Origin: Acaryochloris sp. IP29b_bin.176
GTDB lineage: Bacteria > Cyanobacteriota > Cyanobacteriia > Thermosynechococcales > Thermosynechococcaceae
Reading direction: 5' to 3'
DNA length: 32,048 bases
NCBI GenBank assembly: GCA_028285315.1
Contig: JANQPU010000379.1
Coordinates: 1 to 32,048, forward strand
Positions 5,820 through 31,740 of the stretch are shown piece after piece. Both the position numbers and the translations under genes were made by a program. The stretch's first letter is position 1. Every line of letters begins with the position of its first letter. The notes below the pieces were generated by a model. It did not search any database. It saw only the letters and a program-made list of their open reading frames with translations, and was not told where the DNA came from.

Positions 5820-6599
5820 CTACCTCAATCGGTCTACCTCACAGACTAGTCTGTGCAGGTCTTGGGAAAGGAGCTTTAGCAGGAGTGACTGAGCGGAGTG
5901 TAGAAAGAAGTGATTACCAGGAAGCATATGTAGTGAGAATGCAGCATTTGTCTGCTCTTGCCAAGCGTTCAACTGGTCATAGCTGACTTCTCGATCCTGC
6001 AAACCTCCGAAAGTAGCGATCGGACAATCTAGCGGTGGCTCGGCAGTATAAGCGTATGTTTCGATAACGGTAAAGTCTGCCCGTAGGGTGGGAAGGAGTA
6101 GTTGCATCAGTTCCACATTCTCTAACACCTCCTGAGGTGTTCCCCCAAGCTCGCGCAGTTCATCCAGGAATTCGTGTTCTGGTAGGTTGTGGATCGATGG
6201 CTCTGGATTGGGAAGCTGAGGAGCGCGACGAGCGGACACAAACAGATGAACTGGATTCAAGTTGTATTTGCTGCGGAGTAGGCGGGTCAATTCAAAGCTA
6301 ACCAGTCCACCCATGCTGTGTCCGAAGAAGGCAAATGGCTTGTCTAGACGTGGAATGAGGGCATCGGCGATCGCTTGAACTAAGGGATCGAGGCTCGTAA
6401 ACGCCGCCTCCATCAATCGGAATCCGCGTCCGGGTAGTTCAACAGAACAAACCTCCACAGATAATGGTAAATTATCTGACCAATTGCGAAAACTCGATGC
6501 TCCTCCACCGGCGTAGTGAAAGCAGAAGAGTCGCAGCTTGGCTTGAGAATTGGGCTTAGGACAGATAACCCAGGATTTTAAGGTTTGTGCTGTTGCCAT
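5820..6599 (-). CDS. Type II (stand-alone) thioesterase
   Basis: A 259-residue alpha/beta hydrolase of the GrsT/RifR type, which normally removes misprimed acyl groups from NRPS carrier proteins. Visible features: LFCFHYAGGGASSFRNW near the N-terminus (oxyanion region), the nucleophile elbow GHSMGG with Ser95, Asp202 in GGLQDREV, and His230 in PGNHFF. I start it at ATG 6599; a TTG two codons upstream is possible. It follows the MbtH gene by 56 bp on the same strand, so both serve the NRPSs at 17438-31740. Neither NRPS has its own TE domain, so this enzyme may also release the product, although that is not its usual role. It converges with the binding-protein gene; the stop codons are 36 bp apart. 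Confidence 0.9.
   Translation of the reverse strand: MATAQTLKSWVICPKPNSQAKLRLFCFHYAGGGASSFRNWSDNLPLSVEVCSVELPGRGFRLMEAAFTSLDPLVQAIADALIPRLDKPFAFFGHSMGGLVSFELTRLLRSKYNLNPVHLFVSARRAPQLPNPEPSIHNLPEHEFLDELRELGGTPQEVLENVELMQLLLPTLRADFTVIETYAYTAEPPLDCPIATFGGLQDREVSYDQLNAWQEQTNAAFSLHMLPGNHFFLHSAQSLLLKLLSQDLHRLVCEVDRLR
5840..5855. repeat. 16-bp perfect palindrome at the convergent gene ends
   Basis: CACAGACTAGTCTGTG lies within the last codons of the thioesterase gene, close to the converging binding-protein stop. It could form a short hairpin in both transcripts, but no T-tract follows on either strand, so I do not call it a terminator. Confidence 0.4.
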
Positions 6600-6655
6600 T
6601 GTCAACTATTATATAGTCTTCACAAATTAGCAATGTTTGGAACAGAGCAAGAGCA

Positions 6656-8884: not shown

Positions 8885-8987
8885 GTGTCAATCTGCACAC
8901 CTCTGATAGATCAACGGTTTCGGACAAATTTCCCATAATCATATATCAGTCAGCAAGATACTGTTAAGATAACCTCCATCGTCCACT

Positions 8988-9578: not shown

Positions 9579-9666
9579 CTTGACTCCTCCGGTAGTGTAT
9601 CTTGATGCTTTCACGATAGCGTATCTCTTCAGAGGCTTTGCTCTCTGTACAGAGGCTAGTTCAGTG

Positions 9667-10989: not shown

Positions 10990-11187
10990 AGCCAAAAAGT
11001 GAATACTGCTTGAACGGGAGATGAGCAGTCCATTTCATTGAGAATAGAACAACTGTTTCTCTACCATCCATCTTTATATATTACAATTGCCCCCCTTGAA
11101 TGAAGACTCTACGCCAAAATGCTTGCCCTACTTCCTGAAAACTCAGTTTAACAGGATGCATTAAGCATTCTGTGCTTATATATGTCT

Positions 11188-14134: not shown

Positions 14135-15160
14135 GTGTCTACAATTTCCCGCCAACGTCCATCGCTTCGGTCCACTATCCCGCTAGGATTGGGCCTAATT
14201 CTAGGATTAGGTCTATTATTAGTTTGCTTTATGGCCAGTGTGGGGTTGGGGGTTGCTGATATCAGCCTCAAGACGGTGTATGAAGCCCTAACGGCCTTTG
14301 ATGGATCAACGGATCAACTGATTATTCGGACGGTTCGGATTCCTCGCTCCATTACCGCTCTGCTTGTGGGTGGAGCTGTTGCAGTGGCAGGAGCCATGAT
14401 GCAAGGACTCACTCGCAACCCCCTAGCTGACCCCGGTATTTTGGGGATTAATGCTGGAGCTGCACTGGCTGTTGTGGGGTCAGTGTTTTGGTTGGGAACG
14501 ACTTCCCTCAGCATATATGCGGGGTTTGCCCTGCTGGGAGCTGCGATTGCAGCCATCACGGTTTATGCCCTCGGTTCCCTGGGACGAGGTGGGTTGACGC
14601 CTCTAAACCTGACGATTGCTGGGGCTGCGTTTACGGCGTTGGTGTCGTCCATTACCACGGGGGTTCTGATCCTGAGTCAGCGAACCTTGGAAGAGATCCG
14701 CTTTTGGTTAGCGGGGTCGGTCGCAGGACGAGATTTAGACTTAGTAGTTCAGGTTCTACCATATCTGGTGGTGGGGATGGTGATTGCTCTGGCGATAGGT
14801 AAACAGCTCACCACCCTGAGCTTGGGCGAGGATATTGCCCAAGGTTTAGGTCAGAATACTGCTTGGATCAAGGTGGCTGCAGCGGTGAGTATTATTTTGC
14901 TAGCGGGTGGATCGGTTGCGATCGCAGGTCCGATTAGTTTCATTGGCCTGATTGTTCCCCATATTGTTCGCTTTTGGGTGGGGGTGGATTATCGCTGGAT
15001 TTTACCCTATGCTGCCATTGCCGGAGCCACTTTATTGCTCGTCGCCGATATTGGGGCCAGGTTGATTATTCAGCCCCAGGAGCTGCCCGTGGGTTTGGTG
15101 ATGCCTCTGCTGGGTGCGCCGTTCTTTATCTACTTAACCCGTTGGCAGGTGCGACGATGA
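14135..15160 (+). CDS. fecC: FecCD-family metallophore ABC permease, first subunit
   Basis: A 341-residue inner-membrane permease of the BtuC/FecC type, with about ten hydrophobic helices. Motifs: [56 protein letters not shown], and the coupling-helix region [19 protein letters not shown]. It probably forms a heterodimer with the next gene product and uses the ATPase at 16197. The start is GTG 14135, which is the only initiation codon giving the usual N-terminus; no strong Shine-Dalgarno sequence is visible. It begins 45 bp after exbD and its TGA overlaps the next ATG. Confidence 0.93.
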
Positions 15161-16200
15161 AGCAATGGCTGATTATCCGGTCTTCGTGGTCACCGATTTC
15201 GTTTCACATTGACAGACGGGTGCCTGCTATCTTAGGAGGACTCATTCTAGCGACTCTGGTGGCGATGGTCCTGAGTGTCGGTCAGGGCGAATATCGCGTC
15301 CCTCCCCTGGATGTCATTAAAACTATTTTGGGGTTGGAAACGAACAATTCAGACTTTGTATTTATTGTCATGGCACTACGTCTGCCCCGAACCTTGGTGG
15401 CTTGGGGAGTGGGTGTGGGACTGGCAATTGCAGGCACAATCACCCAAGGTATCACCCGCAATCCCTTAGCCTCTCCAGATATTATTGGAGTCAGTGACGG
15501 CGCTTCCCTTGCAGCTGTGGCTTTGATTGTCCTGTATCCCGAACTGCCGACAGCTCTAATTCCGCTTGCAGCGTTTGGGGGTGCCCTTACCGTTGCAGTG
15601 CTCATTTACCTCTTAGCCTGGAAGGGGAGCAGCTCCTCCGTGCGATTGATTTTAGTCGGCGTGGGTTTCAGTTTGATTGCGAGTGCCCTGACAAATTTGA
15701 TGGTGACCTTTGGCAATATCTACAACGTCAGTCAGGCACTAGTGTGGCTAGCAGGTAGTATCTATGGCCGCAGTTGGGAGCAATTAAATGTGTTTGCCCC
15801 TTGGCTCATCGGATTTGGAATACTGAGCTTGTTAATGAGTCGAGAACTGAATGCGCTACAGCTAGGCGATGAGGTGGCTCGTAGTTTAGGTAGTCGTTTA
15901 GAACTCCAGCGCGGCCTGCTGTTACTGAGCACTGTGGCCCTGTCTGGATCTGCTGTGGCTACCGCAGGCAACCTTCGCTTTGTGGGTTTGATGGCCCCCC
16001 ACCTGGGACGGCAAATGGTAGGTCCCTCTCATGAAGGGCTACTCCCCGTGGCAGCGTTAACCGGAGGATTCACGGTGGTGGTAGCCGACTTATTGGGTCG
16101 GCTACTTTTTGCTCCCATTGAACTGCCCTGTGGCATTATTACGGCTATCGTGGGGGCTCCCTATTTTCTGTATTTATTGATTCGAGATCGCAACTCATGA
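15157..16200 (+). CDS. fecD: FecCD-family metallophore ABC permease, second subunit
   Basis: A 347-residue permease paralogous to the preceding one, with the same marker motifs: [53 protein letters not shown] and [19 protein letters not shown] 15157 overlaps the previous stop in an ATGA junction, which decides the start over in-frame upstream alternatives that would run deep into the first permease gene. Together the two should form the channel that receives cargo from the lipoprotein encoded at 4728. Confidence 0.94.
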
Positions 16201-17024
16201 TCAATGACACTTTTGCCTCCTATGCCCTCACGACTCGAAAGCTGACCCTAGCCTACGAGGGCAAAGTCGTGATTGACTCCCTCGATCTGGCCATCCCCAC
16301 AGGCAAAATCACAGTGTTGGTTGGACCCAATGGTTGTGGCAAATCTACCTTACTCAAGGGATTAGGGCGGTTATTAAAGCCTAAGCATGGCGTAGTATAT
16401 CTGGGCTGTGATTCCATTGCCAAACTCTCGACCAAAGCGATTGCTAAACGGTTAGGGTTGCTCCCTCAAGGACCAACGGCCCCAGAAGGATTGACCGTAA
16501 GGGATCTGGTGGCTCAAGGTCGCTATCCTCACCAAGGCTGGTTGCAGCAATGGTCTAAAGAAGATGAGAAGCAAGTAAATTGGGCGTTGTCCATTACCCA
16601 GATGCAGGAGTTTGCCCATTGTGCTTTGGACAATCTTTCCGGTGGACAGCGGCAACGAGCCTGGATTGCCATGACCTTGGCTCAGGATACGGACATCTTG
16701 CTACTGGATGAACCTACGACCTATCTTGATCTAGCGCACCAGATGGAAGTGCTCGATCTGCTCTATGACCTCAACCAAGAACAAAGCCGAACCATTGTGA
16801 TGGTGTTGCATGATTTGAATCAGGCTTGCCGATATGGAGATTATCTAGTGGCGCTTAAGGATGGCATTGTTTACAAGCAGGGCTATCCTAACCAGGTGAT
16901 GACAGAAACGATGGTGCAGGACGTATTTGGTTTGGAAAGTCAGATTGTCAGTGATCCAGTGGCGGGAACACCATTATGTATTCCTATCGGTCGAAAGATA
17001 TCTATTAAAGCGCCTATCCGCTGA
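16197..17024 (+). CDS. fecE: FecE-type metallophore ABC transporter ATPase
   Basis: A 275-residue ABC ATPase that powers the FecCD-type importer. Walker A is GPNGCGKST (43-51), the signature LSGGQ is at 147-151, Walker B with catalytic Glu is ILLLDE (167-172) followed by PTTYLDL, and the H-loop is VLHD (His205). ATG 16197 overlaps the previous stop (ATGA), so the two are translationally coupled. The gene ends the plus-strand unit. No clear terminator hairpin with a T-tract is seen after it. Confidence 0.95.
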
Positions 17025-17437: not shown

Positions 17438-20400
17438 TCATAATTCTATTTCCTTTCGACCGTTTCCAACCGCAATGGAAGGCTGCGAACCTTGAGTGAG
17501 AGTTAAATGCAAGGTTTCAATGCGATCGCTCAAAAGCGCCACAGTCGGGTTCTCAAACAAACTCCGTAGAGGCAACTCCATCTGGAACGCCTCACGTATG
17601 CGAGAAATCGCTCGGGTGGCCAAGAGAGAATGTCCACCTAACTCGAAGAAATTGTCATGGATTCCTACATTTTGTACGCCAAGAACTGAAACAAAGATAT
17701 TGGTGATGGTTTCTTCAGTTTGATTGCGTGGTGCCACATATTCATGTTCTGGGTTGATTTCTCCATCTGTTGCTATTAATGCTTGCCTGTCTACTTTGCC
17801 ACTGGGTGTTAACGGGAGGGTGCCTAATGCAACAAAAGCACTAGGCATCATGTATTCTGGTAACTTCTGTTTGAGGAAATCACGCAGTTGGTTGGGGGTG
17901 AGTGATTCATCAAAAACTACATAGGCAACTAAGCGTTTGTTACCAGGAATATCTTCTCTTGCAATGACTACAGCTTGTTGGATTTGGGGGTGGGTGTTGA
18001 GAACGGCTTCAATTTCCCCGAGTTCGATGCGGAAACCGCGAATCTTCACCTGATGGTCTATGCGACCGAGAAATTCGATGTTACCATCACGACCGTAGCA
18101 GGCGAGGTCACCTGTTTTGTAAAGGCGTTCGGATTTTGAAGGAGAGAAGGGGTTTGGAATGAATTTTTCTGAAGTTAGTTCTGGGAGGTTGAGATAACCT
18201 CGGGCTAAGCCATCACCTCCAATGTAGAGTTCTCCAGCTACGCCTATGGGTACTTCTTGGAGGTGTTTGTCTAAGATGTAGATTTGGGTGTTACTTATGG
18301 GATGACCAATAGAAGGTGGCTCAGTTGTTCCCTTTTCTAGCAAAGCAAATGTGGAGTAGGTTGTATCTTCTGAAGGACCGTAGAGATTATAAACTCTTTC
18401 AATATTCTGATGCTGGTAGAGCTGTTCTACTATTTTATTTTGCAGGGGTTCACCTGCTAAATTTACAGTTGTAACCTGTTCAGGTATACCCCCAATACTT
18501 AAAAGTTCAGCGATCGCTGAAGGAACCGTATTAATTAAAGTAATTTCCTCTGATGTAGTTAGGTTAGGTATATCCAGAGCATTTTGGATAACAATTACTT
18601 TCCCCCCCAAGCACAGAGTAATAAATAACTCAAAAACGGATAAATCAAAACAGATAGAAGTAGCCGCCAAAACTCCACTCAGTTGCTCAGTGGTAAATGT
18701 TTGTTGTGCCCAATGACATAAAGCTACTGGACTTTGATGTTCAATTGCAACTCCCTTCGGCTTTCCAGTAGAACCCGAAGTGTAGATCACATAAGCCAAA
18801 CTATCAGAAGATACCCCAGCATACAGATTCTCCTTAGAGTTTTTCTCAATTGCATCCCAATCAGTATCTAAACATACCACCCGTGCTTGGTGTTCCGGCA
18901 AAGATTCGAGCAACGAACTGTGAATCAGCAGCACTTCGACACCCGAATCAGCTAATACATAACTGAGCCGTTCTTGGGGATACTTGGGGTCGAGGGGGAC
19001 ATAAGCTCCACCCGCCTTGTGTATCCCCAGCAGTCCCACCACCATTTCCAGGGAACGCTCGATGCAGATACCAACGAGTACCTCGGCTTTAACTCCCAAG
19101 CTTTGCAAGTGATGTGCCAGTTGGTTGGCTCTTTGATTTAATTGTTGGTAGGTTAGCTGTTGCTCTTCAAACACCACCGCTACTGCATCGGGGTTTTTCT
19201 CTACTTGAGCTTCAAATAGCTGATGGATACATTGATCTGAGGAATATTCACTCTGGGTATCATTCCACTCTACCAATAACTGATACTGTTCAGCTTCACT
19301 CAACAAGGGGAATTCAGCTACTGAAAATTGAGGATTTTCCACAACGGCTAACAACAAGTTCTGAAAATGAGCTGTCATTCGCTCAATGGTTGTCCCATCA
19401 AACAAGTCAGTGTTGTACTCCCATTCCCCCACCAATCCTTGGTCTGTTTCAGTCATTGATACGGTTAAATCAAACTTAGCAATTGTGCTTTGCCGCTCTA
19501 AGGGAGTCAATGTCACACTGGGTAATTCTACGTCACCCATCGGTGCATTCTGCAAGATAAACATCACCTGGAACAGGGGCGAATGACTCAAAGAGCGTTG
19601 GGGTTGCAAGGCTTCTACTACCTGCTCAAAAGGCACATCCTGATGTGCGTAGGCTTTGAGTGTAGTTTCTCTCACTTGTGCCAGTAAGTCCTTGATACTG
19701 GGATTATCTTCAAAACGGATTCTCAACACCAAAGTATTCACAAAAAAGCCAATCAATGATTCAATGTCTTCGCGGTTGCGATTGGCTATAGGAGAACCAA
19801 TTGAAATATCTTCCTGGCCACTGTAACGATGGAGCAAGGTGGCAAACGCTGCCAACAGGGTCATATATAAAGTCGTCCCTGACTCCCGAGACAGGGTTTG
19901 CAACTTTTGGGTTAATTCAGTATCTAAACTAAAACTGTGACTCTTACCCTGGTACGTTTGCACGCTTGGACGAGGACGGTCGGTGGGTAATTGTAACAAG
20001 TCTGGCGCACCCTGCAATTGAGAAAGCCAGTAATTGAGTTGAGTTTTTAGTACCTCTCCACTCAACCACTGTCTTTGCCAAACGGCAAAGTCGGCATACT
20101 GGATTGGTAATTCGGCTAAAGGAGATGATTCTCTTTTGCCAAAAGCTTGATATAAGCTCGAGAGTTCTTGGATAAATACCCCAATTGACCAACCATCAGA
20201 AACAATGTGGTGCATTGTGAGTAACAAAACATATTCTGTTGCTGATAAGTGCAACAGAATACACCGGATTAAGGGTGCTTTTTCTAGGTCAAAGGGGGTA
20301 ATGGCTTCAAGTTGTACTTGTTGGTGTAAGACAGTTTCACGTTCAGTTACTTCTACTGGTTCTAAGTCCACTACCTTGATCTTCAAGGTGGCTTCTGGGT

Positions 20401-20740
20401 GAATTACCTGTATGGGTGTGCCGTTAGCCGTGGGGAAGCTAGTGCGAAGTACTTCATGCCGACGTACTATTTCTAATAAGGCTTGTTGCAGGACTTGTAG
20501 GTTGAGGTTCCCCTGTAAAAGGACTGCCCCAAATAGATTGTAAAGGGGGTTATTGGGTTCTAGTTGATCTAAAAACCACAACCGTTCTTGGGCAAAGGAC
20601 AGAGGAACTGAGTCATCCTTGCTTCTTTGGGGTATTTCCTGATATATGGGAGTCTTAGTATTCTTATTTTTAAGTTTTAGTTCTAATAAAGCTCGCTTTT
20701 CTGCTGAAAGATTAGCAATTTTTTTTTTAATTTCATTCAT
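17438..20740 (-). CDS. NRPS, single module C-A-PCP, predicted Ala, no release domain
   Basis: An 1100-residue module. Residues 1-40 are a docking-type helix (LSAEKRALLELKLK) that should receive the chain from the large NRPS. Condensation domain about 45-480 has an intact HHIVSDG at 177-183. Adenylation domain about 500-990 has A3 YTSGSTGKPKG, A5 NLYGPSEDT, A7 YKTGDLA, A8 GRIDHQVKIRGFRIELGEIE and A10 SGKVDRQAL. The pocket residues, aligned by eye to GrsA, are D699 L700 F703 N737 N760 A762 L786 T794 Y795 K982 (DLFNNALTYK), which is the alanine code known from microcystin synthetase McyA. Carrier domain about 1000-1075 with LGGHS, phosphopantetheine Ser1038. Only about 25 residues follow; no TE, reductase or epimerase. 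It begins 89 bp after the larger NRPS gene on the same strand. No strong Shine-Dalgarno sequence is seen. Confidence 0.93.
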   Translation of the reverse strand: MNEIKKKIANLSAEKRALLELKLKNKNTKTPIYQEIPQRSKDDSVPLSFAQERLWFLDQLEPNNPLYNLFGAVLLQGNLNLQVLQQALLEIVRRHEVLRTSFPTANGTPIQVIHPEATLKIKVVDLEPVEVTERETVLHQQVQLEAITPFDLEKAPLIRCILLHLSATEYVLLLTMHHIVSDGWSIGVFIQELSSLYQAFGKRESSPLAELPIQYADFAVWQRQWLSGEVLKTQLNYWLSQLQGAPDLLQLPTDRPRPSVQTYQGKSHSFSLDTELTQKLQTLSRESGTTLYMTLLAAFATLLHRYSGQEDISIGSPIANRNREDIESLIGFFVNTLVLRIRFEDNPSIKDLLAQVRETTLKAYAHQDVPFEQVVEALQPQRSLSHSPLFQVMFILQNAPMGDVELPSVTLTPLERQSTIAKFDLTVSMTETDQGLVGEWEYNTDLFDGTTIERMTAHFQNLLLAVVENPQFSVAEFPLLSEAEQYQLLVEWNDTQSEYSSDQCIHQLFEAQVEKNPDAVAVVFEEQQLTYQQLNQRANQLAHHLQSLGVKAEVLVGICIERSLEMVVGLLGIHKAGGAYVPLDPKYPQERLSYVLADSGVEVLLIHSSLLESLPEHQARVVCLDTDWDAIEKNSKENLYAGVSSDSLAYVIYTSGSTGKPKGVAIEHQSPVALCHWAQQTFTTEQLSGVLAATSICFDLSVFELFITLCLGGKVIVIQNALDIPNLTTSEEITLINTVPSAIAELLSIGGIPEQVTTVNLAGEPLQNKIVEQLYQHQNIERVYNLYGPSEDTTYSTFALLEKGTTEPPSIGHPISNTQIYILDKHLQEVPIGVAGELYIGGDGLARGYLNLPELTSEKFIPNPFSPSKSERLYKTGDLACYGRDGNIEFLGRIDHQVKIRGFRIELGEIEAVLNTHPQIQQAVVIAREDIPGNKRLVAYVVFDESLTPNQLRDFLKQKLPEYMMPSAFVALGTLPLTPSGKVDRQALIATDGEINPEHEYVAPRNQTEETITNIFVSVLGVQNVGIHDNFFELGGHSLLATRAISRIREAFQMELPLRSLFENPTVALLSDRIETLHLTLTQGSQPSIAVGNGRKEIEL

Positions 20741-20829: not shown

Positions 20830-23800
20830 CTATTTGTTATGCCTGGATGAGTGCATTTCTTCGGCTAAGAGTTTTTGTACCTCTTCACTTGATAGTCCTT
20901 CTAACTCAACTAGCAGATGATTGATTTCTTCGTCCTCTGTATTTTGAAGCTGAAAATCAGTGACAGCTTCAGCTAATACTGCTACAGTAGGTTTTTCAAA
21001 TATTTGCCGCAAAGAGAGTTCCGTCGAGAATGTTTGGTTTAGACGAGAAATCACCTGGGTTGCAAGTAGAGAATGTCCACCCAACTCAAAGAAGTTGTCG
21101 TGGATTCCTACATTTTGCACGCCGAGAACTGAAGCAAAGATGTTGGCGATGATTTCTTCACTTGGCGTTCGGGGTGCCACGTATTCATGTTCTGGGCTGA
21201 TTTCTCCATCTTGTGCTGGTAATGCTTTTCTGTCTACTTTACCGTTGGGTGTTAAGGGTAGGGTGTCTAAGGTGACAAAGGTATTTGGCACCATATATTC
21301 GGGTAGCTTTGACAAGAGGAATTCACGCAGTTTGTTGGTAGTGAGGGATTCATTTCTAGTAACGAGATAGGCAACTAAGCGCTTGTTTCCAGTATCGTCC
21401 TCTCTTGCAATGACTACAGCTTGTTGAGTTTGGGGGTGGGTGTTGAGGACGGCTTCAATTTCTCCGAGTTCGATGCGGAAACCGCGAATCTTCACTTGAT
21501 GGTCTATACGACCGAGGAATTCGATATTACCATCTGGCAGCCAGCGAGCTAAATCTCCAGTCCTATACAATCTTTCTTCTTCTGCCTTTTTACTTTTTCC
21601 GACTTCCTTTGCAAACGGGTTGGGGATAAACTTTTCCTGCGTTAACTCGGGCAGATTCAGATACCCTTGTGCTAATCCATCACCACCTGCATATAGCTCA
21701 CCCGGAACACCTGGAGGTAGAAGATTGCCAGACTTATCCAGGATGTAAATTTGCGTGTTTGAAATTGGTTTTCCTATTGGAATTGTATTTTTTTTCAGAT
21801 AGTCTTCTAGAGCTTCTTGTAAATCTGCTTTTGGATTGTTCGCCAACTGCAAATGTATCGCTTCTTTATAGACAGCATCAGTTGTATCAATTGAGCCATT
21901 TCTTGCTTCAATTTGCTTTGCGATTATCAGTTGATTCTCAAGAACACTCTGTAAATCTGCAGTGGTTGTATTCGGATTGGACAATACAGCCCGAAATACG
22001 ACTATTTCTTTATCTTTACCATAAGTAGTGTCAATCAGAGTGGTCTTAGATACAAAGGTCAGTCCTTGTTCAAATTGTTCTCTTTGTATCTGTATATTGA
22101 GTTGATTAATTTTTTGGATGTCATTATCACTCAACGATTTTTGTTGGGCTTTTGATCTTAACCTCTCAGGAATATATCGATAATTAACGATATTCAAAAT
22201 TGGTTCCATTATCAGTTCAAATGGTTCCAATAGGTCAATGAGTCTGGAAAAATATTGAGCCTTCTCTATGCCATCGTCAATTAGAAACTCGTATCCTCTT
22301 TTGCCAATAATGTGAAGTGCTCCGTGTAAGCATAACGATAGTGCCGAGCGTGACCCTTCAATCGTGAATCGTCCCACGTCGAATGTATCTCGCTGAGCCT
22401 GATAACGGGCTGTGGTTTCGGCAAAGTTTAACATTTGCGGATCTTTAAACAGACAAACACTAATACCCTGAGGTAGGTATAACTGTTTATGCCCACAAAT
22501 CGTTAGAGAATCAGCTTTGTTAATTCCATTCAATTTTCCTTTGTGCTTGTCGGAAAATATTGTTGCACCACCCCAAGCAGCATCCACATGAAAATGAATG
22601 CCGAATTCCTGTGCAATATCGCCTAGTTCAAATAAGGGATCGATTTCACCACTTTCTGTTGTTCCAGCGATGCCTACAAGGGCGAGGATGTATAGCTTAT
22701 TTCTCCTGCATTCGCGGATTTTTTCTTTGAGCAGATTGAGGTCTAACTTCCCGTCATCATTACTGTCAATAAAAACAATGTTGTCTGTCCCCAGACCTAA
22801 CATGGAAGCTGCTTTATTGAGAGAGTAATGCATTAGCCGAGAGCCAATGATAACGATATCATGATATCCCTTTTTGCTCAGAACCTTGTAAAGGCTTTCT
22901 TTTGATAGCTGAGCGGAATTTTCTTGGCTTAATAATCCCGAATTTCGCGCACACAATAAAGCACTGATGTTTGCCGTTGTCCCACCGGTTGTTATAAGAC
23001 CAAGACTTCTATTTTTTTGCTGAATATTTTCTTTGTAAAATTCATTTGAAAAGTTATAAACAAGACGATGCAATATAGCTATCGCTTCCCGCTCTAAAAA
23101 TATCAAAGACTTTGATGTCTCGATTTTCACCAGATTTTGGTTCAGTTGCGAAATCATCTTGCTCATATCATGCATAAAGTCGGGCAAAGCCGATGTCATA
23201 TGCCCAATGAATGTAGGAGACCCCGTATTAATCGCATATGGAAGCACCTCCTGGGACAATTTATCGTAATAGTCTTCAACTGTTAGAGGATATGAGGGCA
23301 ACTCGCTCCGTTGAAATTTTGTAGCCAGCATTTCTGGACTCACACCAGGCTGCGTAAACGGTTTCTGGTGAACTCCAAGAACCTGGTTTTCGGTTGTATC
23401 ATGAGCAACTTCTGGCTTGAAATATTGCAGTATTCGTTGGCGTGTTTCCCAAAAATTGACTTCAAAGCAGGTCACGTCAGCGGCAACTTCTGAAGAGCCG
23501 TAGAGATTGAACAATCTGGCAGAACTGAGTTTCTGGTGAAATGCCTCAGCCAACTTTAGTGACAGGGCTTCACCGCTACAAAAGACATATTTGAGATATC
23601 GAAGTATTGTCAATTGTTGGGGTTCATTGTCCAGCATCGCTTTAAGTAGCGATGGAACGACAACAATTCTAGTTATCTTTTTATCGCTCAACAGGTTCAT
23701 TAGCCTGGGAATATCGCCCCGTATGTTATCTGGAACAATTACCAACGGTATTCCCTTGAGAAGGGGCAAAAATATTTCCGCTACGTGATCGACGAAATTA

Positions 23801-26800
23801 ATGGACGTTTTTTGACAACAAACCTCATCTGCCCTAAAGGGTAAGGTTTCCCACATCCAATGCAAGCGATTGACAATGCCCCGTATCGTTCCCAGAACTG
23901 CTTTAGGTCTTCCAGTGGAGCCGGAGGTATAGATGGCGTAAGCGAGATCATCCAGTGTGGTTTGACAATCCAGATTTTCAACGCTTTCTATAGTAATGGT
24001 ATCTCTATCTCTTTCTAGACAGACTAGCTGGGTATTTTGAGGAGGAATCTTCTCAATTAAATACTCCTGGGTCAATAGGACATGCACGTTAGCATCTTCG
24101 AGCATGAACGCTAGTCGTTCTGGCGGATAGTTAGGATCTAACGGTACGTATGCACCACCAGCTTTGAGAGTACCCAGCAAACTCACTACGAGATCTAAGG
24201 ATGGCTCAAAAGAGATTCCTACCCGCACTCCCGAACCAACTTCGAGAGAGAGTAAATAATGCGCCAGTTGATTGGCCTGTTGGTTCAACTGCCGATAGGT
24301 TAGCTGTTGGTTTTCAAAAACGACCGCGATCACATTTGGAGTAAGTTTCACCTGCTCCTCAAATAACTGATGGATACATTTATCTGAGGGATATTCACGC
24401 TCGGTCTTATTCCACTTAGTCAACAACTGATGGCGTTCTGCTTCACTCAACAAAGATAATTCAGCTACAGTTTGTTGAGGATTTATCACAATGGCTGACA
24501 ACAAGTTCTGGAAATGAGCCGTCATTCGCTCAATAGTTGCCCCATCAAACAAGTCACTGTTGTACTCCCATTCCCCCACCAATCCTTGGGCTGTTTCAGT
24601 CATTGACACGGTTAAATCAAACTTAGCAGTGGTTTTTTCTTGCTCTATCTGAGTCAAAGTCACACCGGGTAACTCTACTTCCCCCATCGGTGCATTCTGC
24701 AAGATAAACATCACCTGGAACAGGGGAGAATAACTCAAAGAGCGTTGGGGTTGCAGGGCTTCTACTAATTGCTCAAAAGGCACGTCCTGATATTCATAAG
24801 CTTTGAGTGTGGTTTCCCTAACTCGTGCCAGTAAGTCCTTGATACTGGGATTATCTTCAAAACGGGTTCTCAACACCAAAGTATTCACAAAAAAGCCAAT
24901 CAATGATTCAATGTCTTTGCGGTTGCGATTGGCTATAGGAGAACCTATTGAAATATCTTCCTGGCCACTGTAACGATGGAGTAAGGTGGCAAACGCTGCC
25001 AACAGGGTCATAAATAAAGTAGTACCCGACTCCCGAGACAGGGTTTGCAACTTTCGGGTTAATTCAGTATCTAAACTAAAACTGTGACTCTTACCCTGGT
25101 ACGTTTGCACACTTGGACGAGGACGGTCGGTGGGTAATTGTAACAAGTCTGGCGCACCCTGCAATTGAGAAAGCCAGTAATTGAGTTGAGTTTCTAGTAC
25201 CTCTCCACTCAACCACTGTCTTTGCCAAACGGCAAAGTCGGCATACTGGATCGGTAATTCTGGTAGCGACGAAGGGTTTCCACTAGAAAAGGCTTCGTAG
25301 AGTGTTGCCAATTCGCGAACCAGTATCCCCAGAGACCAAGCGTCGGAGATAATGTGGTGCATCGTGCATATCAACACATGCTCTGTCTCCCCTAACCGTA
25401 TGAGAGTGCATCGCAGCAATAGTTCCTCAGCTAGGTTGAAAGACCACTGGGCTTCCTCAGTAGATAGACGCAGAACCTCACTCTCTGCTTCAGGGAGTTC
25501 CCGTAGGTCAACAACTGGCAGCGTCAAGGTTAGGTTTGGAGCAATTACTTGAACTGGCTGCCCGTCTACTACAGTAAAAGTAGTGCGAAAGACTTCGTGG
25601 CGACGCACGATTTCATTGAAGCTTCGCTCTAGTGCAGCTACGTTCAGTAGTCCTGTTATACGCATAGCTGCCGATTGGTTATAGGAGGGGTTCTCAGGTT
25701 CGAACCGATCTAAGAACCACAACCGCTGCTGGGCAAAGGACAAGGGGAAAGTCCTAGAATTGCGACTTTGAGGTATGATTTTTGTCTGGGAGCCATTCTC
25801 TTCTGCTAGCCTTTGTGTGATAATAACTGCCAATTCAGCTATTGTGGGAGCCTCAAAAAAGTCACTCACAGGCAATTCTATTTCAAAAACGTCTCGCAAA
25901 CGAGACACAACTTGAGTGACTAGGAGGGAATGCCCACCTAAATCGAAGAAGTTGTCGTGGATACCAACTCGCTCAATTTTTAGCAGTTCAGCCCAGATTT
26001 TAACGAGTTTTTCTTCAACAGAGCTACGGGGGGCAACAAAGACTCCGGCAAATTCTGGTCGTACTTGTTCTGGTGCAGGTAATCCTCGTCGATCTAACTT
26101 ACCATTGGGGGTTAGGGGGAATTCTTTAAGCAATACAAAAACTGATGGCACCATGTACTCAGGCAGTCTCTCCTTGAGTAAGTCACGCAGTTGAGGAATG
26201 GTGGGGATTGATTCTCGATTCGGCACAATATAGGCAACCAAACGTTTGTCCCCTGGTACATCGTCTCGTGCCAGAACTACGCTTTCTCGCACCTGTGGAT
26301 GCTGGTTCAGCGCTGTCTCAATTTCACCTAATTCAATTCGGAAACCGCGAATTTTTACTTGGTTATCAATCCGCCCAATAAACTCAATGTTTCCATCGGG
26401 GAGGTAACGAGCTAAATCTCCAGTCTTGTATAAAACCCTCCTGGACTTGTTATTAAAGGGGTTAGGAATAAACCGCTGGGTTGTCATTTCAGGTTGATTC
26501 AGATAGCCTCTGGCTAAGCCATCACCGCTGATATAGAGTTCGCCAACTATGCCAACGGGAACTGGATGCAAATGAGAATCGAGGAGATAAATTTGTGTGT
26601 TGGCAATGGGACACCCTATCGGTACTGGGGTTCCCACCTCCGGGTCCTGGCAATGGTATACACTGCTCCAAACAGTTCCTTCTGTGGGTCCATATTCATT
26701 AAACAGAGAGGTTTCCGATTGCAACTCTAGGTGACGTTGTACCAACTCACTTGGACAAGCCTCTCCTGCAATAATTATTGTGCGAAGTGAGGTTAACTGT

Positions 26801-29800
26801 TCGGGTTTTGCCAGTTCTAGGAGTTGGGAATATAACGAAGGAAGGCTTAATAAATGTGAGACTTGATGTTGAGTAATTAACTCAATGAGTTTTGGCACAT
26901 CCCGTTGTACACCCTCTAGCGGCAGGTAAAGCATTCCGCCTTGGCAGAGTGTCCAAAAGATACCTGCTACGGAACTATCGAAGGCAAAGGAAGATAGTAA
27001 TAAGAAGCTGGTTACTGATTCTTTATAGTAAGCAATACGAGCGCTAGTGGAGTGTACAAGATTTCGATGGGTAATTTGTACTCCCTTGGGTTTGCCTGTC
27101 GAACCAGAGGTGTAGATGACATAGGCTAAATTTTCGGCAGTAATTTCAGGGGTAGGATTTTCCTGGTTTTCTGGCGGAATGGCTTCCCAGTCACTGTCTA
27201 GGCAAATAGTATGAGCATTATGTTGGGGTAAATGTTCGACTAGTCGCTGCTGAGTCAACAACACTGAGGTTTGGGTATCCTCTAAAACGAAGGTTAAACG
27301 CTCTTGGGGATAGGTGGGATCTATGGGTACATACGCTCCGCCAGCTTTAAGAATACCGAGGATGCCAATAACCAATTCAAGCGATCGCTCTACGCAAATT
27401 CCCACCAGTACCTCTGGTTTTACTCCCAAGCTTTGCAGATGACGTGCTAGTTGATTAGCTCTTTGATTTAATTGTTGGTAAGTTAATTGCTGATTTTCAA
27501 ACACCACTGCCACAGCATCCGGCGTTCTCTTTGCCTGCTCTTCAAATAAATGATGGATACATTGATCTGAGGAATATTCACGCTCGGTCTCATTCCACTT
27601 CACCAATAACTGATGGCGTTCTGTTTCACTCAGCAGTGGCAACTCCTGAAGTTGCCGATCAGGATTGGTGATTATGCCTGCTAGTAAAGTCTTAAAGTGC
27701 TCCGCTATCCGTTCAATGGTGGATGCCTCAAACAAGTCTGTGCTGTACTCAAACGTACCCAGTAGTCCTTCAGATGTCTCTTCCATCGACAAAGTCAAAT
27801 CAAACTGGGCAGTACCACTGTGGCTTTTCAAGAAGCTCAAGTTTAAACCAGATAAAGCCATCTCCGACATTGGTGCATTCTGCAAGATAAACATTACCTG
27901 GAACAGTGGTGTATGGCTTAACGCTCGCTGCGGATGAAGTTCCTCGACTAGTTGCTCAAAGGGCAAATCCTGATGAGAATACGCCCCTAGTGCCACTTCG
28001 CGCACCCGAGTTAGCAACTCCCTAAAACTGGGATTGCCGGATAGGTCTGTCCGCAGCACTAAGGTATTGACAAAAAATCCAATTAACCCTTCTATCTCGG
28101 CTCGGTTGCGATTAGCGATGGGGGTTCCTACCACAATATCTTCACTGCCTGTGTAGCGCCCTAGCAGAATTTTGAAGGCTGCCAGCAAGGTCATAAACAA
28201 GGTGCTTCCTGCTTGCTGGCTCAATTGATTCAAGGCAACGGATAACGCCTTCGATAGCGTGAAGGAACAGGTGGCACCTCGAAAAGTTTGAACGGCAGGT
28301 CGAGGATGGTCAGTGGGTAACTCCAGCAGGGCTGGTGCATCCTCTAATTGCTTGCGCCAGTATGATATCTGAGAGGCTAGTACCTCTCCCTGTAACCATT
28401 GTCGCTGCCAAGCGGCGAAGTCAGCGTACTGAATTGGCAGTTCAGGCAGTGGCGTTAGCGAAGCGAGCCGGAGGCTAGGTTGCTCTTCACAGCAAGCTTG
28501 ATAAAGGGTTGACATCTCATGTACCAACACGCCAATCGACCAACCATCGGAGGCAATGTGGTGCACAGTGATTAGTAAGATGTGTTCTTGCTCCCCAAGG
28601 CGCAGTAGTTTTACCCGCAGTAGCAGGTCTGTATTAAGGTCAAAGGGGTGTCTCGATTCTTCCGATACCAGTTGATTGACTTCGGTTTCGCGTCGAGCGA
28701 TCGGTAATTCACTAAAGTCGAGAAGCGGTAACGGTAGCGGTATGACTGGTGAAATGACTGCAACGGGTTGTCCCTCAACTGTCTCGAAATTCGTTCGCAA
28801 GGCTTCGTGGCGGCGTAGAATCTCGTTAAAGGTCTGCTCTAGAGCACTCTGGTTGAGCTGCCCCTGTAGACGTATAGCAGCCGATAGGTTGTAGAGGGGG
28901 TTTTGTGGTTCTAACTGGGAAAGGAACCATAACCGCTGTTGTGCAAAGGATAGGGTTAATTTTCCATTCCTGGAAATGCGCTGGATGGGAGGTGCTTCCA
29001 GCCCAAGTCCAGCCGAAATTGCTTTTTCGATGTGTCTAGCGAACTTACTGATTGTAGGTGCCTCAAACAAACCGCGCAGAGGCAGTTCTATCTCAAAGGC
29101 TTGGCGCATTTGAGAAATGACCTGAGTCGCCAGCAGGGAGTGTCCTCCTAACTCAAAAAAGTTATCGTGTATGCCTACTTTCTCAAGTTTAAGAACCTTT
29201 GCCCAAATGCTAGCTAGTATTTCCTCGATCGGGGTGGAAGGTGCAACATAGATGCCGTTGCTTTGCAGTTTCCAGTCCGGTGCAGGTAGCGCACGGCGAT
29301 CGACTTTACCGCTTGGAGCAATGGGCAGACTCTTCAGCAACACAAAAGCAGACGGTATCATGTGCTGCGGCAGTCTTTCTTGCAAAAAGTGTCGCAACTG
29401 CGACACCAATTCATTATTGATTGCGGAATTTTTATGCAGATCTCGATCCTCAAGTTTCGGAACTACATAAGCCACCAAACACTTGTCGTCAGAACTATCT
29501 TCCCTGACAATAACTACATTCTCCAGCACAGATGGATGCTGACCCAACTGTGCCTCAATTTCTCCAAGTTCAATGCGGAATCCACGAATTTTTACTTGGC
29601 CATCTATGCGTCCTAAAAACTCAATATTCCCATCGGGCAGCCACCTTCCTAAATCTCCAGTTTTGTAGATTAAATCTCTGTTGCTTTCTGGTAAATTCTT
29701 TCGAGTATCAGGATACGGGTTAGGAACAAAGCACGATCTGGTTTTCTCTTCATTTTTCCAATATCCATTCCCTACACCAATTCCCGATACGCAAATCTCA

Positions 29801-31740
29801 CCAGGAACTCCTATGGGTACTAACTGCATCTGATAATCGAGAATATAGAGATTTAAGTTAGCTAATGGCTTGCCAATAGGAACTGTTCGCTGGTTGTCTG
29901 GAAAAGGCTTTTCAACGATGAATTGAGTGATATCATCAGCCGCTTCAGTTGGACCGTAAGCATTCGCGACTCGGATTGAGGGGTATATACTCAACCACTG
30001 ATTCACCCGTTTTACCGATACGGGTTCTCCGACTACCATCATCCACTTCAGAGCGGATAACGATCTTCGCTCGGTAGATAGCTTAGAAATATATTCTAGT
30101 AACCCATTGAATACAGCTGGTACTAGTTCTACGACAGTAATTTTTTTTTCTTGAAGTACTCGAAATAGTTTTTCAGGAATACAAGCTGTTTCTAAGTCTA
30201 CAATAATTGCCTTACCGCCAATGAGAAGTGGAGCTAAAAATTGCCAAACAGAGATATCCGTTGAAGAAGGAGCGCTTTGTAGAAAACAAAAATCTTCTGT
30301 CAGCTCTAGCTCATCGAATTGGGCATAAATATGATTGATGGCACCGTCATGCCTAACAATCGCACCTTTAGGTAATCCAGTGGAGCCCGATGTATAAAGC
30401 ATATAGGCTGGATCGATACCTTGATTGATTTCTTCTAGATTCTCCTCTAGTAAATTATTAAAGTCGCCAGAATCGTAAATATGAATTTCTAATGATTTTG
30501 TGTTTAGTTTATTTTTAGAGTTGACATCCAAAGAGATTAGAGATCGTAGGTGAGGGCAAGATTCTAATAAATTTGTCAAACTGTCTAAGCATACAGAATC
30601 TGTTAATAAAATCCGAACTTCGCTATTAGATAGCATATACTTAATTCGATTTGGTGGATAGTTATTATCAATCGGAATGTATGCCCCACCTGCTTTCAAT
30701 ATAGCTATTAATGCTATTAAAAAATTTGTGTCTCGGTCTTTAAATATTCCAACAAATTCTCCTTTTTCAACTCCTAAGCTTCGTAAAAGTCTAGCTAGTT
30801 TATTGGCTTTTTTGTTAAGTTCTTGATAAGTTAATTGAGTTTCTCCACAAACTACAACTATTTTGTTGGGTGTTTGAGATACTTGTTCTTCAAACAAACT
30901 GTGGATTGTCCGATTTAGGGGATAATTTTTACTATTATCATTAAATAATTTTAATAATTGCTGTTTGTCAGCTTCCTTTAATAAATTAATATCTGCAACG
31001 TTCGAGTAAAGATTTTGGAAAATACCTTCAAGAAGATTGACATAGGATCTTGTCATTAAATAGATTGTCCGATCTTGAAAAATAGATTCTTTATACTCTA
31101 CTTTTCCCGTAATTAACTTTTTATCTTTATTTACATCAAAAGATATGGTTATATCATTGTTTAAGAATAATATATCTTTTTGCTGGTGAATGTTTTTCAA
31201 TAAAACAACAATGTCAAAAAGCGAACAACGATTTTCAATCTGTGGCAGCTTTAAGAACTGAACTAATTGCTTGTAAGGATAATTTTGATGAGTGTATGCA
31301 CTAATAGTAGTATCTTTGACTTGAAGAAGTAAATCTTTGAATGTCAGGTGATCGCTCACGCTAAACCGAAGAGGAACAATCTTATTATCTGAATCCTCAC
31401 CATTCCCTTTCTTATAAGTAGGAGAGCCTACAATAACATCACTATTGCCCGTATACTTATGAAGCAATATACTTAATGCCGACAAAAGTACTAAGTAAAT
31501 AGAAAAGTAAGATCCTTGTGTAACTTTAATAATAGCCTCAGCCAAATCCTCTGATAACTCAAAGCTTATAAATTGATTTTTTTTATTGTATTTTATCGGT
31601 CTTATATAGTCCGGCAAGAGATTAGTTTCTGGTAGTTCGCCGGATAGATTATTTAACCAATAAATCTTTTGATAAAAGAAATTAGTTGGTTGTTCAAAAA
31701 AATGATGAATATCGCTTTTTATTTTTACTGGAAAATCCAT
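20830..31740 (-). CDS. Three-module NRPS containing an A domain interrupted by a PanP-type decarboxylase
   Basis: A 3636-residue synthetase. Domains: truncated C about 20-265, lacking the HHxxxDG half; A1 280-820; PCP1 830-905 (Ser868); C2 925-1370 (HHIASDG 1060-1066); A2 1390-1890; PCP2 1900-1975 (Ser1938); C3 1995-2435 (HHIISDA 2128-2134, Gly replaced by Ala); A3 first half 2450-2761; PLP decarboxylase about 2762-3318; A3 second half 3319-3510; PCP3 3518-3592 (Ser3557); docking tail to 3636 (LLVELEGLSSEEVQKLL). Pocket codes read by eye: A1 DIWEMVADDK (no match I know; Glu278 hints at a basic side chain); A2 DSALIAEVWK, 7 of 10 to the histidine code DSELTAEVCK; A3 VDAVFSLADK, 8 of 10 to the beta-alanine code VDWVISLADK. 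ATG 31740 has GAGG about eight bases upstream, so the short first C domain is a real start. The whole frame is uninterrupted. Confidence 0.95.
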   Translation of the reverse strand: MDFPVKIKSDIHHFFEQPTNFFYQKIYWLNNLSGELPETNLLPDYIRPIKYNKKNQFISFELSEDLAEAIIKVTQGSYFSIYLVLLSALSILLHKYTGNSDVIVGSPTYKKGNGEDSDNKIVPLRFSVSDHLTFKDLLLQVKDTTISAYTHQNYPYKQLVQFLKLPQIENRCSLFDIVVLLKNIHQQKDILFLNNDITISFDVNKDKKLITGKVEYKESIFQDRTIYLMTRSYVNLLEGIFQNLYSNVADINLLKEADKQQLLKLFNDNSKNYPLNRTIHSLFEEQVSQTPNKIVVVCGETQLTYQELNKKANKLARLLRSLGVEKGEFVGIFKDRDTNFLIALIAILKAGGAYIPIDNNYPPNRIKYMLSNSEVRILLTDSVCLDSLTNLLESCPHLRSLISLDVNSKNKLNTKSLEIHIYDSGDFNNLLEENLEEINQGIDPAYMLYTSGSTGLPKGAIVRHDGAINHIYAQFDELELTEDFCFLQSAPSSTDISVWQFLAPLLIGGKAIIVDLETACIPEKLFRVLQEKKITVVELVPAVFNGLLEYISKLSTERRSLSALKWMMVVGEPVSVKRVNQWLSIYPSIRVANAYGPTEAADDITQFIVEKPFPDNQRTVPIGKPLANLNLYILDYQMQLVPIGVPGEICVSGIGVGNGYWKNEEKTRSCFVPNPYPDTRKNLPESNRDLIYKTGDLGRWLPDGNIEFLGRIDGQVKIRGFRIELGEIEAQLGQHPSVLENVVIVREDSSDDKCLVAYVVPKLEDRDLHKNSAINNELVSQLRHFLQERLPQHMIPSAFVLLKSLPIAPSGKVDRRALPAPDWKLQSNGIYVAPSTPIEEILASIWAKVLKLEKVGIHDNFFELGGHSLLATQVISQMRQAFEIELPLRGLFEAPTISKFARHIEKAISAGLGLEAPPIQRISRNGKLTLSFAQQRLWFLSQLEPQNPLYNLSAAIRLQGQLNQSALEQTFNEILRRHEALRTNFETVEGQPVAVISPVIPLPLPLLDFSELPIARRETEVNQLVSEESRHPFDLNTDLLLRVKLLRLGEQEHILLITVHHIASDGWSIGVLVHEMSTLYQACCEEQPSLRLASLTPLPELPIQYADFAAWQRQWLQGEVLASQISYWRKQLEDAPALLELPTDHPRPAVQTFRGATCSFTLSKALSVALNQLSQQAGSTLFMTLLAAFKILLGRYTGSEDIVVGTPIANRNRAEIEGLIGFFVNTLVLRTDLSGNPSFRELLTRVREVALGAYSHQDLPFEQLVEELHPQRALSHTPLFQVMFILQNAPMSEMALSGLNLSFLKSHSGTAQFDLTLSMEETSEGLLGTFEYSTDLFEASTIERIAEHFKTLLAGIITNPDRQLQELPLLSETERHQLLVKWNETEREYSSDQCIHHLFEEQAKRTPDAVAVVFENQQLTYQQLNQRANQLARHLQSLGVKPEVLVGICVERSLELVIGILGILKAGGAYVPIDPTYPQERLTFVLEDTQTSVLLTQQRLVEHLPQHNAHTICLDSDWEAIPPENQENPTPEITAENLAYVIYTSGSTGKPKGVQITHRNLVHSTSARIAYYKESVTSFLLLSSFAFDSSVAGIFWTLCQGGMLYLPLEGVQRDVPKLIELITQHQVSHLLSLPSLYSQLLELAKPEQLTSLRTIIIAGEACPSELVQRHLELQSETSLFNEYGPTEGTVWSSVYHCQDPEVGTPVPIGCPIANTQIYLLDSHLHPVPVGIVGELYISGDGLARGYLNQPEMTTQRFIPNPFNNKSRRVLYKTGDLARYLPDGNIEFIGRIDNQVKIRGFRIELGEIETALNQHPQVRESVVLARDDVPGDKRLVAYIVPNRESIPTIPQLRDLLKERLPEYMVPSVFVLLKEFPLTPNGKLDRRGLPAPEQVRPEFAGVFVAPRSSVEEKLVKIWAELLKIERVGIHDNFFDLGGHSLLVTQVVSRLRDVFEIELPVSDFFEAPTIAELAVIITQRLAEENGSQTKIIPQSRNSRTFPLSFAQQRLWFLDRFEPENPSYNQSAAMRITGLLNVAALERSFNEIVRRHEVFRTTFTVVDGQPVQVIAPNLTLTLPVVDLRELPEAESEVLRLSTEEAQWSFNLAEELLLRCTLIRLGETEHVLICTMHHIISDAWSLGILVRELATLYEAFSSGNPSSLPELPIQYADFAVWQRQWLSGEVLETQLNYWLSQLQGAPDLLQLPTDRPRPSVQTYQGKSHSFSLDTELTRKLQTLSRESGTTLFMTLLAAFATLLHRYSGQEDISIGSPIANRNRKDIESLIGFFVNTLVLRTRFEDNPSIKDLLARVRETTLKAYEYQDVPFEQLVEALQPQRSLSYSPLFQVMFILQNAPMGEVELPGVTLTQIEQEKTTAKFDLTVSMTETAQGLVGEWEYNSDLFDGATIERMTAHFQNLLSAIVINPQQTVAELSLLSEAERHQLLTKWNKTEREYPSDKCIHQLFEEQVKLTPNVIAVVFENQQLTYRQLNQQANQLAHYLLSLEVGSGVRVGISFEPSLDLVVSLLGTLKAGGAYVPLDPNYPPERLAFMLEDANVHVLLTQEYLIEKIPPQNTQLVCLERDRDTITIESVENLDCQTTLDDLAYAIYTSGSTGRPKAVLGTIRGIVNRLHWMWETLPFRADEVCCQKTSINFVDHVAEIFLPLLKGIPLVIVPDNIRGDIPRLMNLLSDKKITRIVVVPSLLKAMLDNEPQQLTILRYLKYVFCSGEALSLKLAEAFHQKLSSARLFNLYGSSEVAADVTCFEVNFWETRQRILQYFKPEVAHDTTENQVLGVHQKPFTQPGVSPEMLATKFQRSELPSYPLTVEDYYDKLSQEVLPYAINTGSPTFIGHMTSALPDFMHDMSKMISQLNQNLVKIETSKSLIFLEREAIAILHRLVYNFSNEFYKENIQQKNRSLGLITTGGTTANISALLCARNSGLLSQENSAQLSKESLYKVLSKKGYHDIVIIGSRLMHYSLNKAASMLGLGTDNIVFIDSNDDGKLDLNLLKEKIRECRRNKLYILALVGIAGTTESGEIDPLFELGDIAQEFGIHFHVDAAWGGATIFSDKHKGKLNGINKADSLTICGHKQLYLPQGISVCLFKDPQMLNFAETTARYQAQRDTFDVGRFTIEGSRSALSLCLHGALHIIGKRGYEFLIDDGIEKAQYFSRLIDLLEPFELIMEPILNIVNYRYIPERLRSKAQQKSLSDNDIQKINQLNIQIQREQFEQGLTFVSKTTLIDTTYGKDKEIVVFRAVLSNPNTTTADLQSVLENQLIIAKQIEARNGSIDTTDAVYKEAIHLQLANNPKADLQEALEDYLKKNTIPIGKPISNTQIYILDKSGNLLPPGVPGELYAGGDGLAQGYLNLPELTQEKFIPNPFAKEVGKSKKAEEERLYRTGDLARWLPDGNIEFLGRIDHQVKIRGFRIELGEIEAVLNTHPQTQQAVVIAREDDTGNKRLVAYLVTRNESLTTNKLREFLLSKLPEYMVPNTFVTLDTLPLTPNGKVDRKALPAQDGEISPEHEYVAPRTPSEEIIANIFASVLGVQNVGIHDNFFELGGHSLLATQVISRLNQTFSTELSLRQIFEKPTVAVLAEAVTDFQLQNTEDEEINHLLVELEGLSSEEVQKLLAEEMHSSRHNK
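21787..23457 (-). other. PLP-dependent aspartate 1-decarboxylase (PanP-type) domain embedded in A3 between motifs A5 and A6
   Basis: About 557 in-frame residues (2762-3318 of the NRPS) between NLYGSSEVAADVTCFEV (A5) and IPIGKPISNTQIYILD, which leads into A6 GELYAGGDGLAQGYL. Group II decarboxylase landmarks: SPTFIGHMTSALP (2841-2853), LNQNLVKIETSKS (2866-2878), TTGGTTANISAL (2917-2928), GIAGTTESGEIDPL, HVDAAWGG (3051-3058; Asp3053 pairs with the PLP ring nitrogen) and TICGHKQLYLPQG with the Schiff-base Lys3085, then TIEGSRSA. These match the Vibrio PanP (PLP-type aspartate 1-decarboxylase) family, about 550 residues long, so the insert is full length. The expected reaction is L-Asp to beta-alanine plus CO2. 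All catalytic residues are present, and the split A domain keeps A1-A10 on both sides. Confidence 0.9.
28451..28479 (+). repeat. Dispersed repeat inserted in frame within the C2 coding region
   Basis: GGCGTTAGCGAAGCGAGCCG followed by GAGGCTAGG resembles the GC-rich interspersed repeats of cyanobacteria and shares its core with the copy at 17361. On the coding strand it encodes about residues 1088-1097 (around SLRLASLTPL), extra relative to the same loop in the other two full C domains, which run almost directly from the helix into LPELPIQYADF. Confidence 0.6.

Follow-up and report, generated by a model that had tools for sequence, protein, structure and literature searches.

A group II PLP decarboxylase domain inserted between motifs A5 and A6 of a cyanobacterial NRPS adenylation domain

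Introduction

Interrupted adenylation (A) domains such as those of TioS, TioN, KtzH and indigoidine synthetase carry a whole tailoring enzyme in frame, with A-domain motifs on both sides of it. The accessible literature, in the parts available to us, places the insertion sites at A8-A9, A2-A3 and A4-A5, lists methyltransferases, oxidases, monooxygenases and ketoreductases among the inserted domains, and presents them as enzymes that decorate an amino acid already chosen. By its described function, a further system comes close to the one reported here: in AFC-BC11 biosynthesis, the PLP decarboxylase AfcP and the A domain AfcQ jointly yield carrier-bound beta-alanine units or analogues, as separate proteins and with aspartate activated first, and the accessible part of the same report names fluvirucin and vicenistatin as similar (PMC12186527). 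In cryptophycin biosynthesis, the beta-methylaspartate alpha-decarboxylase CrpG likewise supplies a beta-amino acid to a cyanobacterial pathway by an aspartate-type alpha-decarboxylation; it is a stand-alone enzyme and is described, in the part of the source available, as PanD-like (pyruvoyl), for which reason we dropped it as a candidate homologue of the domain reported here (PMC7459860).

Here we report an NRPS whose third A domain shares the in-frame architecture of TioS, TioN, KtzH and indigoidine synthetase but differs from them in both insert and site: in place of a methyltransferase, oxidase, ketoreductase or monooxygenase, it contains a PLP-dependent group II decarboxylase, located between motifs A5 and A6. 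Unlike the inserts of the TioS type, which act on a chosen amino acid, this enzyme would produce the monomer itself, making or converting an amino acid inside the domain that chooses it. The searchable literature, to which most subscription papers and a catalogue of such interrupted domains from 2020 (PMC8341866) do not belong, yielded no earlier description of a decarboxylase inside an A domain.

Results and Discussion

The interrupted third module

The window, by which we mean the whole 32,048-nucleotide stretch analysed, lies on contig 84 of a draft genome of 5.35 Mb in 438 contigs that is 87% complete (G000). The NRPS gene and the parts of its last module are as follows.

20830..31740, reverse strand: NRPS gene, 3636 aa in a single open frame, partial C - A1 - PCP - C - A2 - PCP - C - A3 (interrupted) - PCP
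24421..25758, reverse strand: condensation domain of the interrupted module, residues 1995-2440 (PF00668)
23470..24363, reverse strand: N-terminal part of the A domain, A1-A5, residues 2460-2757 (aligned code VDAVFSLADK)
21790..23436, reverse strand: inserted PLP decarboxylase with linkers, residues 2769-3317, 549 residues (from alignment)
21211..21789, reverse strand: C-terminal part of the A domain, A6-A10, residues 3318-3510 (PF13193 at 3427-3501, and motifs)
20959..21183, reverse strand: carrier (PCP) domain of the interrupted module, residues 3520-3594 (carrier motif GGHS at 3554)

The original prediction, made from the letters of the window, was of a complete decarboxylase domain within an otherwise complete A domain and in a continuous frame, and both points hold. 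Core motifs of the A domain flank the insert on both sides within the one open frame: A3 YTSGSTGRPKAV at residue 2604, the A4 region at 2649 and A5 (NLYGSSE) at 2745 precede it, and IPIGKP at 3320, A6 at 3347, A7 at 3392, A8 at 3410, A9 at 3479 and A10 at 3498 follow. The insertion thus lies in frame between A5 and A6, where an uninterrupted relative (L117), compared by eye, has a loop of about 10 residues. The insert itself, predicted at 21787-23457, is real, although alignment of eight inserts with seven stand-alone homologues set its boundaries slightly narrower, at 21790-23436. The site had also been called unusual, and it does differ from the A2-A3, A4-A5 and A8-A9 sites, with their other types of insert, in the portion of the literature accessible to us. 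A5-A6 would be a further loop that tolerates an enzyme of 550 residues and could be usable in NRPS engineering.

Of its first C domain, the gene encodes only the C-terminal half (30952-31740, residues 1-263) ahead of A1, whose code is DIWLMVADDK, and no HHxxxD motif was found in those 263 residues. A comparably short C match (235 aa, 24-26%) precedes an A domain coded DIWLMVADDK at L114, L120 and L126.

Recurrence in other cyanobacterial genomes

The search for other A domains split by PF00282 that the original prediction had proposed was productive: the insertion is present in eight cyanobacterial genomes, namely that of the window and seven others (78-86% identity). A contig scan returned five named cyanobacteria, each of which has A domain, insert and A domain arranged as in the window and 74-79% identical across ~1150 aa (Plectonema cf. 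radiosum LEGE 06105, Mastigocoleus testarum BC008, Richelia sp. SL_2_1, Moorena sp. SIO3H5 and Hyella patelloides LEGE 07179), and the insert occurs at 80-83% identity in another two genomes, G635 and G521. The insert was also searched against whole genomes, in overlapping sets of 388 from the class, 291 from one order, and 217, 27 and 29 from three families; these searches returned the window genome, G635, G521 and four of the five named carriers, the Moorena genome lying outside the searched sets. The N-side boundary of the insert is identical at all eight loci and the C-side boundary at seven. In G521 (locus L089), the exception on the C side, the reading frame is disrupted on both sides of the insert, and in the sequence as assembled the interrupted A domain, at 8183-11393, is split across several frames; the other seven loci are intact. 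The Mastigocoleus assembly is listed at 38% contamination, and its locus agrees with the others. Since the same arrangement is found in seven other genomes, it is due neither to chance nor to an assembly join or chimeric contig at the junctions, the possibility on which the original prediction might have foundered.

Family assignment and conserved residues

PF00282 matches residues 2830-3189 (22174-23253) with an E-value of 7.2e-45 and a score of 153.8 bits, against a gathering score of 27, which places the insert among the group II PLP decarboxylases. The match spans profile positions 27-374 of 375, and the insert aligns nearly end to end with stand-alone enzymes, with a shorter N-terminal arm; it is a complete enzyme domain. 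Among the closest known systems is PanP (TIGR03799), including the stand-alone copies in NRPS/PKS clusters, with which it shares family and catalytic residues. We compared it with 47 stand-alone homologues, two of them identical in sequence, four PanP-like proteins of other phyla and an outgroup of eight, a ninth selected locus having yielded no usable frame. Aeromonas PanP was left out of the comparison, since its match was not covered by a single open frame. Seven positions stand out.

22486..22488, reverse strand: Lys3085 (GHK), PLP Schiff-base lysine; Lys in 8/8 inserts, 47/47 stand-alone, 8/8 outgroup
22582..22584, reverse strand: Asp3053 (HVDAAWGG), partner of PLP N1; Asp in 8/8 inserts, 47/47 stand-alone, 8/8 outgroup
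22828..22830, reverse strand: His2971, PLP-stacking histidine; His in 8/8 inserts, 47/47 stand-alone, 8/8 outgroup
22402..22404, reverse strand: Tyr3113, catalytic-loop tyrosine; Tyr in 8/8 inserts, 47/47 stand-alone, 8/8 outgroup
22348..22350, reverse strand: Arg3131 (EGSR), presumed alpha-carboxylate arginine; Arg in 8/8 inserts, 47/47 stand-alone, 7/8 outgroup
22393..22395, reverse strand: Gln3116, catalytic loop; all 8 inserts have Gln, whereas the 47 stand-alone proteins and the 4 from other phyla all have Arg
22495..22497, reverse strand: Cys3082, preceding GHK; all 8 inserts have Cys, whereas the 47 stand-alone proteins and the 4 from other phyla all have Asp

Lys3085 and Asp3053, the two residues singled out in the original prediction, are thus conserved as claimed, and His3084 is kept in all eight inserts and all 47 stand-alone homologues. 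The accompanying statement that the domain bears every landmark of PanP holds for the catalytic residues but is otherwise overstated: both inserts scanned fall below the TIGR03799 equivalog cut-off of 606.1 bits (521.5 for the window, 529 for Mastigocoleus), which all three stand-alone PanP-like proteins scanned exceed (643.1, 632.4 and, barely, 606.2). The loop arginine of the stand-alone proteins is moreover glutamine in every insert, and together Cys3082 and Gln3116 separate the inserts from all 51 other PanP-like proteins compared (47 stand-alone and four from other phyla). With arginine replaced by glutamine and aspartate by cysteine, the substrate or the mode of action may differ from that of the stand-alone enzyme. 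The insert is further set apart from PanP by being embedded and by presumably serving a purpose other than pantothenate synthesis; PanD is present in all nine genomes tested, including that of the window, so that the insert should be dispensable for pantothenate and a role in making it is unlikely.

The insert looks functional, to judge from its retained catalytic residues and from signs of purifying selection. Its dN/dS lies between 0.10 and 0.23 in all 21 pairs among the seven intact loci (Nei-Gojobori; the broken L089 excluded), similar to the range of 0.08-0.31 for the two A-domain parts. Synonymous divergence between the window NRPS and L003, L004 and L005 is uneven along the gene, at 0.43-0.45 in the insert, 0.60-0.68 in the N-terminal part of the A domain and 1.02-1.04 in the C-terminal part, a pattern suggestive of recombination or of transfer among distant cyanobacteria.

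Stand-alone relatives and A-domain specificity

The other matches to the insert (E-value 1e-89 or better, 44-50% identity) are open frames of 333-621 aa, representing stand-alone genes or pieces, in 91 genomes. Among these, the stand-alone PanP-like proteins of NRPS clusters are likewise 44-50% identical to the insert, and we examined 46 stand-alone loci, drawn from 45 of these 91 genomes. Each of the eight loci inspected first has NRPS domains flanking the gene, and in 13 of 14 later loci its same-strand neighbours are an A- or PKS-domain gene on one side and a KS or C domain on the other, the exception being L119. At L105, L110, L114, L120 and L126 it lies between two PKS modules with no neighbouring A domain, so that an adjacent A domain is not obligatory in every cluster. 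Similar genes adjoin NRPS genes outside the cyanobacteria, on a Paenibacillus polymyxa M1 plasmid and in Mycetohabitans and Halomonas. In a decarboxylase tree of 63 rows the eight inserts form one clade with support of 100/100. One cluster, L106, holds in its assembled form two PanP-like genes about 6 kb apart (9359-10792 and 15354-16787) that encode identical protein sequences.

Specificity codes were read in columns located through the motifs, under GrsA numbering, and the final K517 was assumed for every domain; for the window, nine positions come from alignment and K517 is assumed from A10. The interrupted A domains read VDA[VL]FS[LF]ADK at all eight loci. The window code, VDAVFSLADK, equals VDWVISLADK, which we take to be the beta-alanine code, at eight of ten positions (K517 assumed). 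A text search of the searchable literature did not find the code VDWVISLADK, and none of the 42 distinct solved-structure sequences that match an uninterrupted A domain of this code is named for beta-alanine. At 21 of the 46 stand-alone loci, a VDW[LV][VI]SLADK A domain has its A3 motif within ~2 kb upstream of the PanP-like gene, and at L117 the A domain directly before that gene has exactly the code VDWVISLADK.

With ANK variants counted, a VD-code A domain was present in the first stretch at 28 of the 46 stand-alone loci, and at 41 after a downstream extension that covered 16 of the 18 loci without one. These 41 loci divide into 12 with ADK codes only, 9 with both, and 20 with only the [VI]DWLISLANK variant, the last of which count against the beta-alanine reading. 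The five loci without a VD code are L101 and L102, both unextended and on contigs that stop close to the gene; L119, where the A domain is coded VDAMFSLIEK and lies on the opposite strand; L043, with no VD-code A domain within ~40 kb; and L045, counted as a miss because the A3 regular expression overlooked some A domains, and where a 65% identical A domain lies ~2 kb before the PanP-like gene (G282). The second VD-type A domain, [VI]DWLISLANK (L003 12106, L004 19369, L040 17156 and others), forms a clade of 18 of its own, has asparagine and not aspartate at position 331, and occurs in 29 of the 46 stand-alone PanP-like clusters.

Among 217 genomes, 73 have a PanP-like match, and these include all 28 with a VD-type A-domain match of at least 604.8 bits, a threshold picked after the list had been viewed, with at most seven candidate A domains scored per genome and the codes of the hits unread. 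G670, which comes next with 597 bits, lacks a PanP-like match. An A-domain search at 1e-158 was too lax, matching 101 of the 217 genomes, and VDW and other A types overlap below ~600 bits.

In a quick-method, midpoint-rooted tree of 123 rows, which omits three A domains with short or broken upstream sequence (L089 among the omitted loci), the seven interrupted A domains form a single clade (100) next to the full set of 39 uninterrupted A domains with ?DW codes (97), and the 46 group together (99). Three changes in the pocket region, W239A, W298V and S237H, are present in all seven interrupted domains and in none of the 39 uninterrupted relatives. In the clusters of other phyla, the Paenibacillus code VDAMSSIADK and the Mycetohabitans code VDTIISFGDK fit the pattern, and one Halomonas domain, IVLFLASTCK, does not.

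Proposed function and alternative explanations

The insert most likely yields beta-alanine from aspartate, either before loading or on the carrier. Overall, the best explanation in our view, to which we would give an even chance, is that it is an active tailoring domain that forms beta-alanine by alpha-decarboxylation of free L-aspartate; the A domain around it would then adenylate this product and load it on the next carrier, so that the module would bring its own precursor supply. The coupling of precursor synthesis to activation that had been predicted is in this respect made plausible by the beta-alanine-like host code and by the stand-alone relatives beside such modules, and made less so by the score below the PanP cut-off and by Gln3116. 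As group II PLP decarboxylases form dimers that share their active sites, we would predict that the NRPS dimerises through the insert; an NRPS module bearing an inserted epimerase domain is dimeric according to the accessible part of one report (PMC8807600). Because a PanP-like gene often lies beside a beta-alanine-type module, and the inserts and their host A domains are kin to those genes and modules, we infer a single origin, in which a PanP-like gene moved into the A5-A6 loop of such a module. The family would then preserve a likely evolutionary route from neighbouring gene to internal domain, with the separate-gene state persisting in many genomes.

The order of the steps could also be reversed, the A domain loading L-aspartate through its beta-carboxylate and the insert removing the alpha-carboxylate to leave beta-alanyl-S-PCP. 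Both active sites would then have been retuned after fusion, and one module would derive a beta-amino-acid unit from a proteinogenic amino acid; we regard this as a tentative alternative. Glutamine in place of Arg3116 in 8/8 inserts (arginine in 47/47 and 4/4 others) looks as if a free side-chain carboxylate need not be held, and the loss of Trp239 and Trp298 with the gain of His237 (7/7 against 0/39) looks as if the pocket region accommodated something bulkier. The replacement of Asp3082 by cysteine points the same way. There is precedent in AfcQ, which activates aspartate for decarboxylation on the carrier by AfcP (PMC12186527), and in inserted methyltransferases that refuse the free substrate and act on the loaded amino acid (PMC11355689), each as given in the accessible part of its source. 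The host code, however, retains Asp236 and Asp331 and has no arginine for an alpha-carboxylate, and it still matches the presumed beta-alanine code at eight of ten positions. Alanine at position 239 is independent of fusion, since the Paenibacillus NRPS cluster pairs VDAMSSIADK with a stand-alone enzyme of the arginine type.

Preparation of a different monomer is unlikely, namely that the insert decarboxylates another amino acid, such as glutamate, a substituted aspartate or cysteine sulfinate, for use by the A domain. The sub-threshold PanP score and the departure from 51/51 compared proteins at C3082 and Q3116 would fit such a shift, and glutamate and cysteine-sulfinate decarboxylases presumably have glutamine near the loop position of residue 3116; the VD..S.ADK-type code speaks against it, as does the kinship of the host with A domains beside PanP-like genes, of which all three products scanned exceed the PanP cut-off. 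It is very improbable that the insert is catalytically dead and serves only structure or dimerisation, a reading to which the long stem branch of the insert clade and the broken frame at one of eight loci (L089) might lend themselves, but against which stand catalytic residues intact in 8/8 and purifying selection comparable to that on the A-domain parts. The chance of an assembly artefact or chimeric contig is practically negligible: the draft state of the genome (438 contigs, 87% complete) would allow it, and the same insertion in seven other genomes opposes it.

Gene neighbourhood and product

Returning to the preferred reading, the beta-alanine unit would enter a siderophore-like peptide or hybrid, and the presence of the insert could let beta-alanine units be predicted in cyanobacterial siderophore-like clusters. 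The neighbours of the NRPS gene in the window are the following.

17438..20740, reverse strand: next NRPS, 1100 aa, C-A(DLFTNALTYK)-PCP, following the 3636-aa NRPS
5820..6605, reverse strand: thioesterase gene, probably type II (PF00975)
2112..4715, forward strand: TonB-dependent siderophore receptor (TIGR01783, 450.5 bits, cut-off 223.5)
4728..5783, forward strand: periplasmic iron-chelate binding protein (PF01497)
14135..15160, forward strand: FecCD-type permease (PF01032)
16197..17024, forward strand: FecE-like ABC ATPase (FecE is the top NCBIfam hit at 332 bits, below the cut-off of 375)

Siderophore uptake genes lie near the cluster at three of the eight loci (window, Mastigocoleus and Richelia) and were not found at the other five in the stretches examined, several of which are short. 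A KS follows the interrupted module at five of the eight loci, and a C domain follows it in the window and in Hyella; at the Moorena locus neither was found within the sequence examined. An IS605 OrfB/TnpB-type gene is located at 7800-8690 of the window, amid the siderophore genes.
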